Source: Micromonospora chaiyaphumensis (GTDB lineage Bacteria > Actinomycetota > Actinomycetes > Mycobacteriales > Micromonosporaceae). From it: 64,000 nucleotides of DNA. The stretch lies in contig NZ_FMCS01000008.1 in assembly GCF_900091435.1 (NCBI RefSeq), forward strand, positions 186,001-250,000, written 5' to 3'. The translations under genes and the position numbers were made by a program. This document shows positions 8,283 to 64,000 of this stretch, piece by piece (the stretch's first letter is position 1; the number at the start of each line of letters is the position of its first letter). A model generated the notes under the pieces. The model saw nothing but the letters and a program-made list of their open reading frames with translations, did not search any database and was not told the DNA's origin.

Positions 8283-10120
<1,838 letters not shown>

Positions 10121-58930: not shown

Positions 58931-58984
58931 ATGGCTGATTGCCCTCAGTCAAGCGTTTTGAGTTCTCCCTGGTCCGCTCGGGCT

Positions 58985-59094
58985 GTCTGACCGTTTTGCG
59001 TGGTCTGACCGGGACCTGGCCGGGTTTCCAATTCCGCAGTTAAATGCGTCTCCATGGCTCCGCCGGAATGTTTTGCCGGTGGGGTGACGGGTAC
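58985..59094 (+). promoter_or_regulatory. sigma-B-like stress promoter of the gas vesicle cluster
   Basis: GTTT (59070-59073), 15 nt and GGGTAC (59089-59094) match the actinobacterial sigma-B/H pattern GNNT-N14-16-GGGTA(C/T). Upstream, GTCTGACCG occurs twice, 18 bp apart (58985 and 59003), a possible regulator site. The leader is about 115 nt. The 290-bp gap holds no other gene. Confidence 0.55.
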
Positions 59095-59219
59095 TGCCCG
59101 CCGGGTCCGCTGATACGGAACGTCGGTCGCAGGCCCCTTTCCGCTGATCCCCGGCAGCTGTCTTTCCGGGCCTGCTCCAGATGAGGTGTCCGCTTCCGCC
59201 GGGGAGCGAAGGAGAACTG

Positions 59220-59672
59220 ATGAAGAGCGGAGCACGGGTAGCGCTGGCGGTGGGCTTCGGCTACCTCCTCGGGCGCCGGAAGAAGATGCGTACCGCCCTC
59301 ACCCTGGCCGCCGCCGTGGCGGCCGGGCGGGCCAGCCAGCGACCGGGCGGGCTGAAGCAGCTCGGCACGGACCTGTTGAACGTCCCCCAGCTCGGCGGCC
59401 TCGGCAAGCTGGGCGCCCCGCTGGCGACGGCCGGCAAGGCCGCGGCGACCGCGGCCGCGGGCAGCGGCATCGACGCGCTCAGCGGCAAGCTGCGGGGCAG
59501 CGCCGACGCGCTGCGCCGGAAGTCCGGCGGCGGCCCGCCGGAGGAGGAGGCGGCAGGGGGCCAGCGCTCGGCCGCCGACGACGAGGAGGAGCTGGACGAG
59601 CAGCCCACCGCGGAGGACGAGACGGACCGGGGCGGGCGCCCGGTCGTCGCGCGACGGCAGCGGGGGCGGTGA
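59220..59672 (+). CDS. gas vesicle cluster protein, GvpY-like
   Basis: A 150-residue protein that opens the gas vesicle cluster. The N-terminus (MKSGARVALAVGFGYLLGRR, KKMRTALTLAAAVAAGRAS) has a short amphipathic or membrane-like helix, then Gly/Leu/Ala-rich sequence (QLGGLGKLGAPLATAGKAAA) and an acidic tail (ADDEEELDEQPTAEDE). Position and composition match the unnamed gene that precedes the SRPBCC gene in Streptomyces clusters (sometimes called gvpY). AAGGAGAACTG precedes the ATG. Its molecular role is unknown. Confidence 0.6.
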   Translation: MKSGARVALAVGFGYLLGRRKKMRTALTLAAAVAAGRASQRPGGLKQLGTDLLNVPQLGGLGKLGAPLATAGKAAATAAAGSGIDALSGKLRGSADALRRKSGGGPPEEEAAGGQRSAADDEEELDEQPTAEDETDRGGRPVVARRQRGR

Positions 59673-59674
59673 CC

Positions 59675-60898
59675 ATGGCGACCAGCAACCTCACGGACCG
59701 GGCCCGGGAGCAGCTCGGCGGCGAGCTGCGCAACCTGGCCTCGGCCATCGGCGAGCGGGCCGTGCACGTGGTCACCGAGCGGATCACCGGCGCCACCGGA
59801 CGGCTCAGCGAGTACGCCAAGCAGGGCGGTGGCCCTGGCCTGGTCGCCGCCGCCACCGGCGCCCAGAAGCTCGCCGAGGGCCACTCCCCGGTCAAGGCCA
59901 TGTTCCATGCCGGCCTGGCCGGCGGTAAGGAGAAGTTGATGTCGGCGTTCGGCGGCGGCAAGGGCGGCAAGGGCGGCGGCAAGAAGCTCAAGGTCACCAA
60001 CATCGTCGAGACCATCGAGGTCGGCGTGCCGGTCCGGGTCGCCTACAACCAGTGGACCCAGTTCGGCGACTTCCCGAGCTTCATGAAGAAGGTCGAGCAG
60101 GCCGACTGGGACTCGGACGGGAAGATGACCTGGAAGGCCCAGGTCTTCTGGTCGCACCGGACCTGGGAGTCGACCATCGTCCGGCAGATCCCGGACCGGC
60201 TCATCCACTGGCGGTCCAAGGGCGAGAAGGGTTCCGTCGACGGCACCGTCAGCTTCCACGAGGTCGCTCCCGAGCTGACCAGGATCCTGGTCGTGCTCGA
60301 GTACCACCCGCAGGGCCTTTTCGAGCACACCGGCAACCTGTGGCGCGCCCAGGGCCGCCGGGTCCGGCTGGAGCTGAAGCACTTCGTCCGGCACGTGATG
60401 ACGCAGACCGTGCTCGACCCCGAGTCGGTCGAGGGCTGGCGCGGTGAGATCGAGGACTCCGAGGTGGTCAAGGACCACGAGACCGCCCTCCGCGAGGAGC
60501 AGGAGGCCCGCGAGGAGCGCGAGGGCCGCGAGGAGCGGGAGGCCCGCGGGCGGGGCCGCGCCGAGGAGCCCGAGGAGGAGCCCGAGGAGGAGCCGGAGGA
60601 GGAGCGCCGGCCCGCCCCGCGCGGCCGCCGCCGGCCACCGCCGCCGCGTCGCCGTCCCGCCCCCGACGAGGAGGAGTACGCGGACTACGACGAGGGCGAC
60701 GACTTCGACGACGACGAGTACGCCGAGGAGCCCGAGGAGCAGGAGCCGCCGCGCCGCCGCGCGCCCGAACGGGCGCGCCGCCCCCAGCCGCGCGAGGAGC
60801 GGGAGGCGCGCCCCGAGCGCCCGCGCCCGGTCCGGCGGGCTCCCGAGACACCACGACGGCCGGTGGTACGCCGCCGGCGGGAGGAGCGTGAGGAATGA
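59675..60898 (+). CDS. gas vesicle cluster SRPBCC protein, GvpZ-like
   Basis: A 407-residue protein in three parts. An N-terminal helical region ([20 protein letters not shown]) is followed by an SRPBCC/START-like domain at about 105-260 ([59 protein letters not shown]). The last 140 residues are very long, charged and low complexity, with Glu-rich and Arg/Pro-rich blocks. It is similar to the SRPBCC gene of Streptomyces gvp clusters (gvpZ). It may bind a hydrophobic surface during vesicle assembly; this is inferred. It overlaps gvpA by ATGA. Confidence 0.75.
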
Positions 60899-61323
60899 CG
60901 GTGGCCACCACGACGGGACAACCGGGCAGCGCCCTGGAACGCACGAGCGGCGGCGGCGGCGGGACCCTCGCCGACGTCGTGGAGACCGTCCTGGACAAGG
61001 GCGTGGTGATCGACGCCCAGGTGTCGGTCGCCGTGGTCGGTATCCAGCTCCTGGAGATCAACGCACGGATCGTGATCGCCAGCGTCGAGACGTACCTGCG
61101 GTTCGCCGAGGCGGTCGACCGGCTGAGCATCGTGCCGAAGGGCACGAAGGGCCTGCCGGACATGGTCGGTGACGCGGCCGGCGCGGCCACCAAGGGCAAG
61201 GCGATCTCCGGGCTCGGCAAGGCGGCCCAGGAGATCAGCGGCGCGGTGGCCGACTCGCTCCGGGACGGCGGCTCCGAGCGGGAGCGGGAGCGGCCGCGCC
61301 GGCGGCGGGACGAGGAGCGCTGA
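60895..61323 (+). CDS. gvpA: gas vesicle structural protein GvpA
   Basis: The main shell protein. Residues about 22-75 contain the GvpA core: [50 protein letters not shown]. The 142-residue length is much longer than the 70-75 of cyanobacterial GvpA; the extra C-terminal 65 residues are Gly/Ala-rich and end in a strongly charged Arg/Glu stretch, as in actinobacterial versions. It is followed after 1 bp by gvpF. Assembly in this organism is not shown. Confidence 0.9.
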
Positions 61324-61324
61324 G

Positions 61325-62080
61325 ATGGCTCAGGAGAACGGGCTGTTCATCTACGGCATCGTGCCGTCCGACGTGGAGCCGACCCCCGAGGCCGAGGGGG
61401 TCGGCTCCCCGCCCGGGGAGGTGATCGCGATCCGGCACGGCGAGCTGGCGGCGCTGGTCAGCGAGGTCGGGCTGGAGGAGCCGCTGGGCCGGCCGGCCGA
61501 CCTGACCGCGTACGAGCGGCTGCTCGACGGGACGGCCGTGGTCGCGCCGGTGCTGCCGGTGCGGTTCGGCACGGTGGTGACCGGCGAGGACGCGGTGGAG
61601 GACCTGCTCGCCGCGCACCACGACCGGTTCGCCGCCGCCCTCGACGAGGTCGAGGACCGGCTCCAGTACACCGTGCACGGGCGCTTCGACGAGCAGGAGT
61701 TCATCAGCGGGTTCCTGGCGGAGAACGCCTCCGCCGCGGCGCTCGCCGACGAGGTGCGCGGCCGCCCGGAGATCGAGAGCCGGGAGCAGCGCATCCGGCT
61801 CGGCGAGATGATCAGCCAGGCGGTGGAGCTGCGCCGCGAGGCGGAGAACCGCGACCTGATCGACTCGGTGGGCCGGTACGCCGTGGCGGACGCCGCCCTC
61901 CCGCCCAGCCACGAGCTGGACGCGGTGCGCGTCTCCTTCCTCGTGGAGGGCGACGACGAGGACGCGTTCGTCCAGGCCGTGGAGGACTTCGCCGAGCACC
62001 GGCGGGACCTGATCCGGATGCGGCTGATCGGCCCGCTCGCCCCGTACGACTTCGTCAGCGCACACCAGCTGGTGGAGTGA
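61325..62080 (+). CDS. gvpF: gas vesicle protein GvpF
   Basis: A 251-residue GvpF/GvpL family protein needed for vesicle nucleation. It opens with NGLFIYGIVPSDVEPTPEAE, then IRHGELAALVSEVGLEEPLG, PVLPVRFGTVVTGEDAVEDL, and ends with RMRLIGPLAPYDFVSAHQLV, the standard GvpF order. It lies between gvpA and gvpG as in other actinomycetes. A second, more divergent member (gvpL) is at 63139. Confidence 0.92.
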   Translation: MAQENGLFIYGIVPSDVEPTPEAEGVGSPPGEVIAIRHGELAALVSEVGLEEPLGRPADLTAYERLLDGTAVVAPVLPVRFGTVVTGEDAVEDLLAAHHDRFAAALDEVEDRLQYTVHGRFDEQEFISGFLAENASAAALADEVRGRPEIESREQRIRLGEMISQAVELRREAENRDLIDSVGRYAVADAALPPSHELDAVRVSFLVEGDDEDAFVQAVEDFAEHRRDLIRMRLIGPLAPYDFVSAHQLVE

Positions 62081-62084
62081 CCGC

Positions 62085-62432
62085 GTGGACATCCTGTGGA
62101 CGCTGCTGACCCTGCCGTACGCGCCGGTGCGCGGGCTCACGGCGCTGGTGAAGGTGGTGGCGCGGGAGGCCGAGTCCCAGCAGTACAACCCGGTCAACAT
62201 CCGGCGCGAGCTGGAGGAGCTGGACCGGGCCGCGGCGGCCGGGGACATCACACCGGAGGAGCGGGACCGGGGGCAGCAGCAGGTGCTGGACCGGCTTACC
62301 AGGCCGGCCGCCGGGGCGGACCGTACCCCGCCGCAGCGGGAGGGCGGGCCCCGGCGGCCCGCGCCCGCCCGGCGGGGCACGGCCGGCGGCCGCCGCGGTG
62401 CGGCGCGGCGCGGACGAGGGGGAGGACCATGA
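62085..62432 (+). CDS. gvpG: gas vesicle protein GvpG
   Basis: A 115-residue accessory protein. The first 75 residues are the GvpG domain (LWTLLTLPYAPVRGLTALVK, VVAREAESQQYNPVNIRREL, EELDRAAAAGDITPEERDRG), the rest a Pro/Arg/Gly-rich tail. GTG start, 4 bp after gvpF; it overlaps gvpO by ATGA. Confidence 0.9.
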   Translation: MDILWTLLTLPYAPVRGLTALVKVVAREAESQQYNPVNIRRELEELDRAAAAGDITPEERDRGQQQVLDRLTRPAAGADRTPPQREGGPRRPAPARRGTAGGRRGAARRGRGGGP

Positions 62433-62776
62433 CGGCACGGATCCGGGGTGACGGCGACCGGGAGCGGTGGCGCGACCGGGGCGGTCGGGTCGAGGAGCGG
62501 TATCTCGACGAGGACGACGAGGAGGCGGTCAGCGCGGCCGAGGCGGCCCGGGAGGGGCTGCGCCAGGTCGTCGCGCTGACCGGCAAGGATCCGCTCGGGG
62601 TCACCTCGATCCAGCCCACCGACGACGGCTGGCGCATCGGGGTGGAGGTGGTCGAGGACCACCGCATCCCGGCGTCGACCGACCTGCTCGGCCTCTACGA
62701 GGTCGAGCTGGACATGACCGGCAGCCTGCTCGGCTACCGGCGGACGCGTCGCTACCAGCGCGGCAAGGGGGACTGA
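62429..62776 (+). CDS. gvpO: gas vesicle protein GvpO
   Basis: A 115-residue GvpO. The acidic N-terminus (ERYLDEDDEEAVSAAEAARE) is followed by the core AREGLRQVVALTGKDPLGVT, then DDGWRIGVEVVEDHRIPAST and LLGLYEVELDMTGSLLGYRR, the known GvpO signature with its C-terminal Tyr-Arg-rich end. GGAGGACC precedes the ATG. In Streptomyces gvpO lies at the start of the cluster; here it is in the middle. Confidence 0.92.
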   Translation: MTARIRGDGDRERWRDRGGRVEERYLDEDDEEAVSAAEAAREGLRQVVALTGKDPLGVTSIQPTDDGWRIGVEVVEDHRIPASTDLLGLYEVELDMTGSLLGYRRTRRYQRGKGD

Positions 62777-62777
62777 G

Positions 62778-63155
62778 ATGACCATTGGGCGGGCGCCGTC
62801 GGTCGTGCAGAACTCCGGTCAGGTGCTGCCGGCCGGCCACGAGCCGGCGAACCTCGGCGACATCCTGGAACGGGTGCTCGACCGCGGCATCGTGATCGCC
62901 GGTGACATCCGGGTCAGCCTGCTCGACATCGAGCTGCTGACGCTGAAACTGCGGCTGGTCATCGCCTCGGTGGACACCGCGCGGCAGATCGGCATCGACT
63001 GGTGGGAGCACGATCCGTGGCTCAGCTCCCGGGCCCGCCCGCCGGTCGAGCCGGGCCCGCGGGACCCCGAGGAGGTCGAGGCGTCCCGCCGGCCGCGGGT
63101 CGCGGCCCGGGCCGAACGGGACCCGAGGGAGGGCTGGCATGACCACGACCTCTGA
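62778..63155 (+). CDS. gvpJ: gas vesicle protein GvpJ
   Basis: A 125-residue GvpA paralogue of the J/M/S group. Core residues about 24-75: NLGDILERVLDRGIVIAGDI, RVSLLDIELLTLKLRLVIAS, VDTARQIGIDWWEHD. The WW and following charged tail separate it from GvpA. It is a minor shell or initiation protein. It overlaps gvpL by 17 bp. Confidence 0.88.
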   Translation: MTIGRAPSVVQNSGQVLPAGHEPANLGDILERVLDRGIVIAGDIRVSLLDIELLTLKLRLVIASVDTARQIGIDWWEHDPWLSSRARPPVEPGPRDPEEVEASRRPRVAARAERDPREGWHDHDL

Positions 63156-63939
63156 CCCCGTCCGGGACACCGGCACCGCCGTCTGGCTGCACGGCGTGGT
63201 CACCGGGACGGCCACCCCGGCCGGGCTTCCGGGCATCGCCGGCACACCGGTCCGGGCCGTGGCCGCCGCCGGCTTGGTCGCCGTGGTCAGCGATGCCCCG
63301 CTCAGCGAGTACGGCGAGGCGGCGCTGCGCCGCAACCTGGAGGACCTGGCCTGGCTGGAGCGGGCGGCCCGGGCGCACCACGCCGTGGTGGACGCGCTGT
63401 CCCGGTCCGGCGCCGTGGTGCCGGCCCGGCTCGCCACCGTCCACCGGGACGACGACCGGGTGGCCCGGGTGCTGGTCGAGCGGCACGACGAGCTGGCCGG
63501 CACGCTGGCCCGGCTCGCCGGCCGCGCGGAGTGGGGCGTCAAGGGATACGTGGTGCCCGGCGCCACCCCGCAGGTAGAGGAACCCGCGGGCGGGGGCGGG
63601 GCCGGCGCGGCGTACCTGCGGCGGCGCAAGGCCCAGCTCACCGCCCGGGAGGAGGGGCAGCGGGTCGCGGCCGACGCGGCCGCCACCGTGCACGCCGCCC
63701 TCGCCGGGTACGCGGTCGCCGCCTGCCGGCACGCCCCGCAGGACCGGCGGCTCTCCGGTGCGCCCACCGCCATGGTGCTCAACGGGGCGTACCTGGTCGA
63801 CCGGGACCGCTGGGACGGCTTCGCCGGGCTGGCCCGCGAGCTGGCGGAGCGGCACCCGGAGCTGCGCATGGAGCTGACCGGCCCGTGGCCGCCGTACTCC
63901 TTCGTGGCGGAACCGGAGGCGGAGCCGGCATGGGCGTGA
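63139..63939 (+). CDS. gvpL: gas vesicle protein GvpL
   Basis: A 266-residue GvpF/GvpL-family protein. It opens VWLHGVVTGTATPAGLPGIA, has AAGLVAVVSDAPLSEYGEAA and VPARLATVHRDDDRVARVLV, and closes with ELTGPWPPYSFVAEPEAEPA. A Gly/Ala-rich loop is inserted in the middle (EEPAGGGGAGAAYLRRRKAQ). Only distantly related to the gvpF at 61325. It overlaps gvpJ by 17 bp and gvpS by 10 bp. Confidence 0.88.
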   Translation: MTTTSDPVRDTGTAVWLHGVVTGTATPAGLPGIAGTPVRAVAAAGLVAVVSDAPLSEYGEAALRRNLEDLAWLERAARAHHAVVDALSRSGAVVPARLATVHRDDDRVARVLVERHDELAGTLARLAGRAEWGVKGYVVPGATPQVEEPAGGGGAGAAYLRRRKAQLTAREEGQRVAADAAATVHAALAGYAVAACRHAPQDRRLSGAPTAMVLNGAYLVDRDRWDGFAGLARELAERHPELRMELTGPWPPYSFVAEPEAEPAWA

Positions 63940-64000
63940 CCACGCTGGCGCCCAGCAGCGCCGACGACCCGCTGACCTACCGCCCGGTGGCCCTGGTCGA
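63930..64000 (+). CDS. gvpS: gas vesicle protein GvpS, cut by window edge
   Basis: Only the first 23 codons are present: MGVTTLAPSSADDPLTYRPV followed by ALV. This matches the start of the GvpA-related GvpS/J group, and its position after gvpL fits the actinobacterial order. It overlaps gvpL by 10 bp. A gvpK gene is expected beyond the edge. Confidence 0.65.
   Translation, partial: MGVTTLAPSSADDPLTYRPVALV

Follow-up and report, generated by a model that had tools for sequence, protein, structure and literature searches.

A complete gas-vesicle operon under a probable SigB-family promoter in Micromonospora chaiyaphumensis, and a gvpY–gvpZ pair that may be separable from it

In this study we looked at a gas-vesicle (gvp) gene cluster at the end of a 64,000-nucleotide stretch of the Micromonospora chaiyaphumensis genome (contig NZ_FMCS01000008.1, positions 186,001 to 250,000; the whole stretch is called the window below). 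Our reading, to which we give a probability of roughly 0.7, is that this is a complete ten-gene vesicle operon under SigB-family control, with a leading gene pair, gvpY and gvpZ (YZ), that is separable from the rest. The cluster itself is ordinary and complete; what is unexpected is that in several sister species its first two genes are left open without the vesicle genes. Such YZ-only loci are new here, whereas the stress control is already in print for Streptomyces coelicolor. The finding bears on the old question of why soil mycelia carry gas-vesicle genes. The genus provides a natural series at one locus (full cluster, YZ only or nothing), so that it can be tested directly whether YZ or the vesicle genes are what pays under stress. 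It also offers an initial clue to two proteins that are listed as hypothetical in S. coelicolor (PMC5839063).

The ten genes run on the plus strand from 59220 in the order gvpY, Z, A, F, G, O, J, L, S, K and cross the window end. Nine of them fall within 59220–64000, the ninth (gvpS) being cut by the window end, and the tenth, gvpK, lies outside. The features are as follows, with positions beyond 64000 given as window equivalents:

59070..59094, plus strand: very probable SigB-family promoter GTTT-N15-GGGTAC, an exact string that starts 150 bp before the gvpY start
59095..59219, plus strand: 5′ leader of about 115–125 nt, with a conserved initial region and a ribosome-binding site AAGGAG at 59209–59214 (32 upstream regions aligned)
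59220..59672, plus strand: gvpY-like, a small, predicted helical protein with a hydrophobic N-terminus carrying a GYLLGR motif and a charged tail (family alignments)
59675..60898, plus strand: gvpZ-like, helical N-terminus, START-like domain and charged low-complexity tail (Polyketide_cyc, 2e-17)
60895..61323, plus strand: gvpA, shell protein with a C-terminal extension (Pfam; matches to 8gbs and 7r1c)
61325..62080, plus strand: gvpF, GvpL_GvpF family (Pfam, 2.1e-56)
62085..62432, plus strand: gvpG (Pfam, 1e-18)
62429..62776, plus strand: gvpO (Pfam, 4.5e-30)
62778..63155, plus strand: gvpJ, a GvpA paralogue (Pfam and NCBIfam)
63139..63939, plus strand: gvpL, GvpL_GvpF family (Pfam, 2.6e-59)
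63930..64000, plus strand: gvpS, a GvpA paralogue, whole gene 63930–64157 (Pfam Gas_vesicle; the best NCBIfam model, haloarchaeal GvpM, is below its cut-off)
64154–64507, plus strand: gvpK (Pfam GvpK)

Genes three to ten are above the Pfam curated cut-offs (Gas_vesicle, GvpL_GvpF, GvpG, GvpO, Gas_vesicle, GvpL_GvpF, Gas_vesicle and GvpK, in that order), and the gene junctions are tight, with overlaps or gaps of 1–4 bp. Families and junctions thus bear out the tight, overlapping run of nine gvp-type genes described in the initial annotation, of which the ninth runs past the window end. The actinomycete host named there also stands, the closest named relatives among the matches listed being Micromonospora. 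Beyond the products of gvpA, gvpJ and gvpS, the whole genome has no Gas_vesicle match. GvpA scores best with the structural-GvpA models of NCBIfam, yet below their curated cut-offs, and aligns with the solved shells 8gbs (4.9e-17) and 7r1c (4.7e-16). The content is that of an actinobacterial gas-vesicle cluster: GvpA, then F, G, J, K, L, O and a third GvpA-like protein, with gvpY and gvpZ homologues adjoining the core.

The separability of the pair emerges from a cross-table of 151 genomes of the genus, with a gvpZ threshold of E below 1e-100 and with both genes searched in the same genomes. There, gvpZ is found in 80, gvpK in 72 and both in 70 genomes. Ten have gvpZ without gvpK; in one of these (G651, locus L270) the cluster stands at the end of a contig and still has A to J, and it does not count as YZ-only. 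In the remaining nine (9/151), gvpY and gvpZ stand beside the usual upstream GNAT gene and the vesicle core is deleted. Downstream of the pair comes a CDC48-like gene; G716 and G244 are without it and have the gene beyond in its place. A Gas_vesicle match is absent genome-wide in eight of the nine, and the ninth, Micromonospora sp. RP3T (G700), keeps a fragment. Since five of these eight are single-contig assemblies (G116, G671, G652, G244 and G710), the absence of the core is not an assembly fault. The Y and Z frames are open in all nine, with no stop in the matched parts. Eight of the nine have the exact promoter; in Micromonospora chalcea DSM 43026 (G674), which keeps only YZ, a single base differs. 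In a clade of five YZ-only genomes the four exact sites are nearer to the gene (75–81 bp). The GvpZ tail after the START-like core has 114–152 residues in eight of the YZ-only genomes, within the 110–182 of seven gvp-positive examples, and 89 in M. chalcea. Of 20 gvpK-negative loci hand-picked, and so not at random, from the CDC48 match list, five have YZ.

One possible explanation is that a deletion hot spot near the gvpZ end, and not selection, leaves YZ behind. Several junctions, judged by eye, do lie within the first gvpA codons. By the same inspection, the gvpA start runs into gvpJ in G700, G716 and G244 are cut in the first gvpA codons, and G710 and the five-genome clade have lost the vesicle genes from a point close to the gvpZ end. 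Yet the right ends vary (gvpJ, the CDC48-like gene or beyond), the left ends are not visibly identical, and YZ stays open across the divergence of the five genomes. We regard a hot spot as quite improbable.

The number of origins was read from a 58-locus tree of the two genes next to the pair on its upstream side, made by a quick IQ-TREE run with support from the Shimodaira–Hasegawa-like approximate likelihood ratio test (SH-aLRT). L119 was left out of this tree and of the promoter alignment, L270 and L271 were left out of the trees, and L070, L225 and L269 are missing from the first tree and enter the second with about 40% of the columns. The YZ-only label needs six changes, and if one of them is put down to the additional loss in G146, there are five origins; well-supported branches force five changes, which are read as four origins plus G146, with G244 at an open fork. 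By fewest changes the YZ-only state would thus have arisen about five times, and at least four of these origins read as well supported. Regain of the core by recombination, instead of repeated loss, would also be compatible with the two-gene tree. The ratio of nonsynonymous to synonymous substitution rates (dN/dS, Nei-Gojobori) was calculated for the five-genome clade, in which the loss is probably shared (10 pairs per gene), and for five gvp-positive pairs. For gvpZ it is 0.14–0.43 in the clade versus 0.10–0.17 with the vesicle genes, and for gvpY 0.16–0.36 versus 0.22–0.36. The constraint on gvpZ therefore seems weaker than with vesicles but is present.

The same values also fit another hypothesis, namely that the YZ-only loci are half-decayed remnants, in which gvpY and gvpZ are useless without vesicles and are next to be lost. 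It would explain why the gvpZ ratio in the shared-loss clade exceeds that of the gvp-positive pairs. The nine YZ-only loci are all in one half of the genus tree, and in the other half YZ is lost together with the core, or what is left is an S-K remnant (G723) or Y-O-J-L-K fragments (G677). Even inside a YZ-only clade, G146 (L211) is without YZ as well. The phylum sample has 20 genomes in which the gvpZ match is full-length and strong (E below 1e-65), and all 20 have gvpK. These losses and this co-occurrence speak for decay and weigh against an independent value of the pair; in our sample gvpZ is a close companion of the vesicle genes, save in part of Micromonospora and in Prauserella alba. Decay, on the other hand, sits less well with the nine open frames and eight exact promoters, with several origins after each of which the gvpZ frame is open, with dN/dS below 1 in all pairs of the clade, and with Prauserella alba (L306), which retains YZ and has no Gas_vesicle match. 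We consider decay a serious possibility, if somewhat short of an even chance. Because all 20 of the strong-gvpZ genomes in the phylum sample have gvpK, we hold it only possible to probable that YZ may have a separable role apart from vesicle building. A more far-reaching idea, which we put forward tentatively and with more doubt than belief, is that GvpY and GvpZ are not an assembly pair but a self-standing SigB-induced stress unit, made up of a helical protein at the membrane and a START-like carrier of hydrophobic ligands, that was recruited by actinobacterial vesicle clusters and outlives the vesicle genes. If true, the soil-dispensable part of the operon would be the vesicle and the retained part YZ.

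Further YZ copies were seen away from vesicle genes. G222 has a second copy apart from its cluster (L271, about 8432–9593, minus strand) with its own GTTT-N15-GGGTAC site; compared with the cluster copy, dN/dS is 0.68 for gvpZ and 0.53 for gvpY. Saccharopolyspora rhizosphaerae (L326) and six Actinomadura have YZ or ZZ loci without the core in the stretch read, with GvpA elsewhere in the genome. Actinomadura genomes have gvpZ-like pairs (ZZ) away from their gvp clusters (L323, L329, L339, L351, L352 and L353). Family f5 has extra long gvpZ copies far from gvpK (G372:C1:9408324, G571:C1:8300119 and C1:4864272, G411:C1:633937).

Prediction of the GvpZ structure gives a START-like helix-grip domain at residues of about 103–251, with a mean predicted local distance difference test score (pLDDT) of 73.1. 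The best match of this model is 5z8o (MSMEG_0129; Z 19.3, root mean square deviation 1.6, 137 residues aligned). The START-like (SRPBCC) proteins MSMEG_0129, ZhuI (3tfz) and CoxG (8uds) have the fold predicted for this region, but the identity is low (6–20% in the rows listed) and GvpZ adds the helical N-terminus and the charged tail. When the GvpZ alignment was run as a profile against the PDB, DR_A0006 (3ggn, 2kcz) was the sole match. The START-like fold often holds hydrophobic ligands, and the modelled GvpZ domain probably binds one. Neither Pfam nor NCBIfam gives a match for the gvpY product at E 0.1; its model is helical with low confidence (mean pLDDT 65.9), and the family alignments have a near-invariant GY-LGR stretch. 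In PubMed Central listings for the gene names and SCO numbers, no paper on the function of the actinobacterial pair was found. Serratia also has genes called gvpY and gvpZ, which we assume share only the letters with it. In S. coelicolor, SCO0654 (gvpZ2) may need whiH and, less clearly, whiA for its developmental up-regulation, according to PMC3878966.

The promoter assignment is based on conservation. In all 32 genus clusters of this type the same site is found with the same spacing, 145–154 bp before gvpY, and the −35 and −10 hexamers are 13 nt apart in 32/32, in line with SigB-family promoters, whose GTTT-like −35 and GGG-A- −10 elements have 12–14 nt between them. In the spacer of these 32 upstream regions two columns are near-fixed (0.97 and 0.88) and the other 13 are variable, with the commonest base at 0.31–0.69. 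Because the site recurs in 32/32 while its spacer varies, 59070–59094 is very probably a real SigB-family promoter, so that the stress-type promoter proposed earlier for the cluster holds. Mononucleotide shuffles of the upstream regions gave the pattern in only 2 of 8000 cases; adding the divergent L119, the second cluster of G228, makes the genus scan 32/33. For the family's other genera the count is only 5/15 upstream regions, and that with a looser pattern. The leader was considered as a structured element and set aside, with no Rfam search made, the fold being not clearly beyond column shuffles (RNAalifold −12.6 versus a shuffle mean of −6.3, standard deviation 2.65, lowest of 50 shuffles −13.65).

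Three SigB/F/G sigma genes are above the NCBIfam cut-off in the genome. The exact pattern occurs nine times in the whole genome, the reversed control never, and four of the nine sites precede a plausible gene in a crude start-codon scan. Three further sites (L229, L230 and L235) sit before other genes, which by eye we take to resemble DUF2231, DUF3140 and a PEBP-family protein. Together these could be a possible small stress regulon.

The site resembles described promoters. PMC8346170 quotes the Bacillus subtilis SigB consensus as GTTTAA-N12-14-GGGA/TAA/T and gives SCO1089p (GTTTCC-N13-GGGTAT) and SCO3557p (GTTTGC-N14-GGGTAC) as SigB-family promoters of S. coelicolor; here the sequence is GTTTTG-N13-GGGTAC. 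Promoters like SCO1089p are read there by SigB homologues (PMC8346170), and the one here would be read by some member of the SigB family. The S. coelicolor gvp operon is stated to be SigB-regulated (PMC5733086), and gvp expression is reported to rise with salt (PMC5839063), with acid shock (11/16 gvp genes up and 2 down; PMC2631018) and, at one of two loci, with cell-wall antibiotics (PMC3123327). The stress link of gvp is thus already known for S. coelicolor, and the genus-wide promoter footprint is the addition made here.

Another question is whether the operon makes vesicles at all. In Halobacterium, GvpF, G, J, K, L, M and O are described as essential besides the shell protein GvpA (PMC9501494), and each of these eight, the p-vac set of Halobacterium salinarum, has a homologue here if gvpS is counted as the GvpM counterpart. 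In contrast to H. salinarum, gvpY and gvpZ are extra, and no gvpC, gvpH or gvpI was identified among the ten genes; the rest of the genome was not searched for gvpC. A whole-genome search for GvpN (TIGR02640) reached no more than 38 bits, far from the cut-off of 266.8. Matches below the cut-off were also found in 12/14 control genomes, and gvpN is counted as absent. Haloferax transformants without gvpN are reported to have tiny vesicles only (PMC9501494), and since this genome is without gvpN, small vesicles are predicted. Because all eight essential homologues are present and GvpA matches solved shells, true gas vesicles, perhaps small, remain the best reading of the sequence and of the haloarchaeal analogy.

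The initial annotation had suggested that these proteins may have a role other than vesicles. In its full form the operon would no longer make vesicles, and all Gvp proteins would serve another stress role, e.g., protein storage or turgor-related shells. PMC5839063 reports that gvp disruption in S. coelicolor left buoyancy unchanged and that vesicles were never found in soil bacteria, and mentions a proposal of nitrogen storage. PMC9501494 counts gvpC and gvpN as conserved in all clusters, while its own table has S. coelicolor without them. A gvpK match is missing from 79/151 genomes of the genus, which shows the trait to be dispensable. All this counts against working vesicles. A switch of role is nevertheless unlikely: GvpA retains the shell sequence of 8gbs and 7r1c, the ten genes stand in the same order in 31/33 genus gvpK loci read, and in the five gvp-positive pairs dN/dS is 0.10–0.22 for gvpK and 0.15–0.45 for gvpA. 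Vesicles are also reportedly made by Streptomyces sp. CB03234-S, as the title of Huang et al. 2019 and a table row in a review have it. For the whole gene set the suggestion is therefore not supported in this form, and it was only for gvpY and gvpZ that we found evidence of a non-vesicle function. In PubMed Central titles and abstract openings no literature on gas vesicles in Micromonospora itself was found.

With true vesicles as the preferred reading, a SigB-family sigma factor would read 59070–59094 late in growth or when the cells are under osmotic or general stress, as the conserved site and S. coelicolor suggest. By homology, GvpA would form the shell, and F, G, O, J, L, S and K would nucleate and chaperone it as in haloarchaea, the vesicles staying small without gvpN. 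The likeliest place of action of GvpY and GvpZ in the same stress is a membrane or a hydrophobic surface, and the pair may aid vesicles where these are present and retain some value without them.

GvpK was searched in 250 family, 396 phylum and the 151 genus genomes, and was found in 60/250, 34/396 (32 above the cut-off) and 72/151. From the 62 family gvpK places G246 was left out (gvpK 3.2 kb into the contig), and the window's own cluster was read from its flanking stretch (L004). The 42 phylum-scan places were used without G391 and G634, which score under the cut-off, and without two repeats, G000 and G043; the partial or divergent clusters L081, L118, L122, L125, L145, L152, L156 and L158–L161 were kept in the order tables. 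Besides the 31/33 genus loci, 12 of 28 other family loci have exactly YZAFGOJLSK. Of 38 loci outside the family, 13 have OAFGYZJLSK, the Streptomyces type, all in one family (f5), and one has YZAFGOJLSK. This order is also present in 60 of the best 80 named loci with a gvpZ relative, a set of the best among the matches listed that is biased to close relatives of the window's gvpZ, and its holders there include Mycobacterium, Nocardia, Rhodococcus, Nonomuraea, Saccharomonospora and Kitasatospora. The earlier remark that the order is unlike that of Streptomyces is correct, whereas a peculiar order is rejected: YZAFGOJLSK is widespread among actinobacteria, and differs from the Streptomyces-type order in the positions of YZ and O. 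The S. coelicolor clusters SCO6499-6508 and SCO0649-0657 likewise have gvpO, A, F, G, Y, Z, J, L and S (PMC5839063) and gvpK (PMC2631018), with gvpO first and gvpYZ between gvpG and gvpJ, whereas here gvpYZ is first and gvpO follows gvpG. Order variants such as ZY or JO were an artefact of sorting stop-to-stop frames, and are gone when sorted by matched region. L115–L117 and L119–L122 represent a second, divergent actinobacterial cluster type, with orders such as OJLSKAFZ and OJLKAFGYZ.

After gvpK, convergent genes on the minus strand (window-equivalent 64510–71599) encode the CDC48-like tandem AAA ATPase, a 160-residue protein without a Pfam match, a GTPase, a DUF742 protein, a roadblock protein and a NIT/HAMP kinase, the last four presumably forming a complete conservon. 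The ATPase was considered as a gvp-specific substitute for GvpN and rejected, as strong matches (E <= 1e-180) are present in 148/151 genus genomes versus gvpK in 72/151. Its adjacency is a feature of the locus, and the ATPase may still help vesicles. The CDC48-like/conservon neighbourhood is found both with and without gvp.

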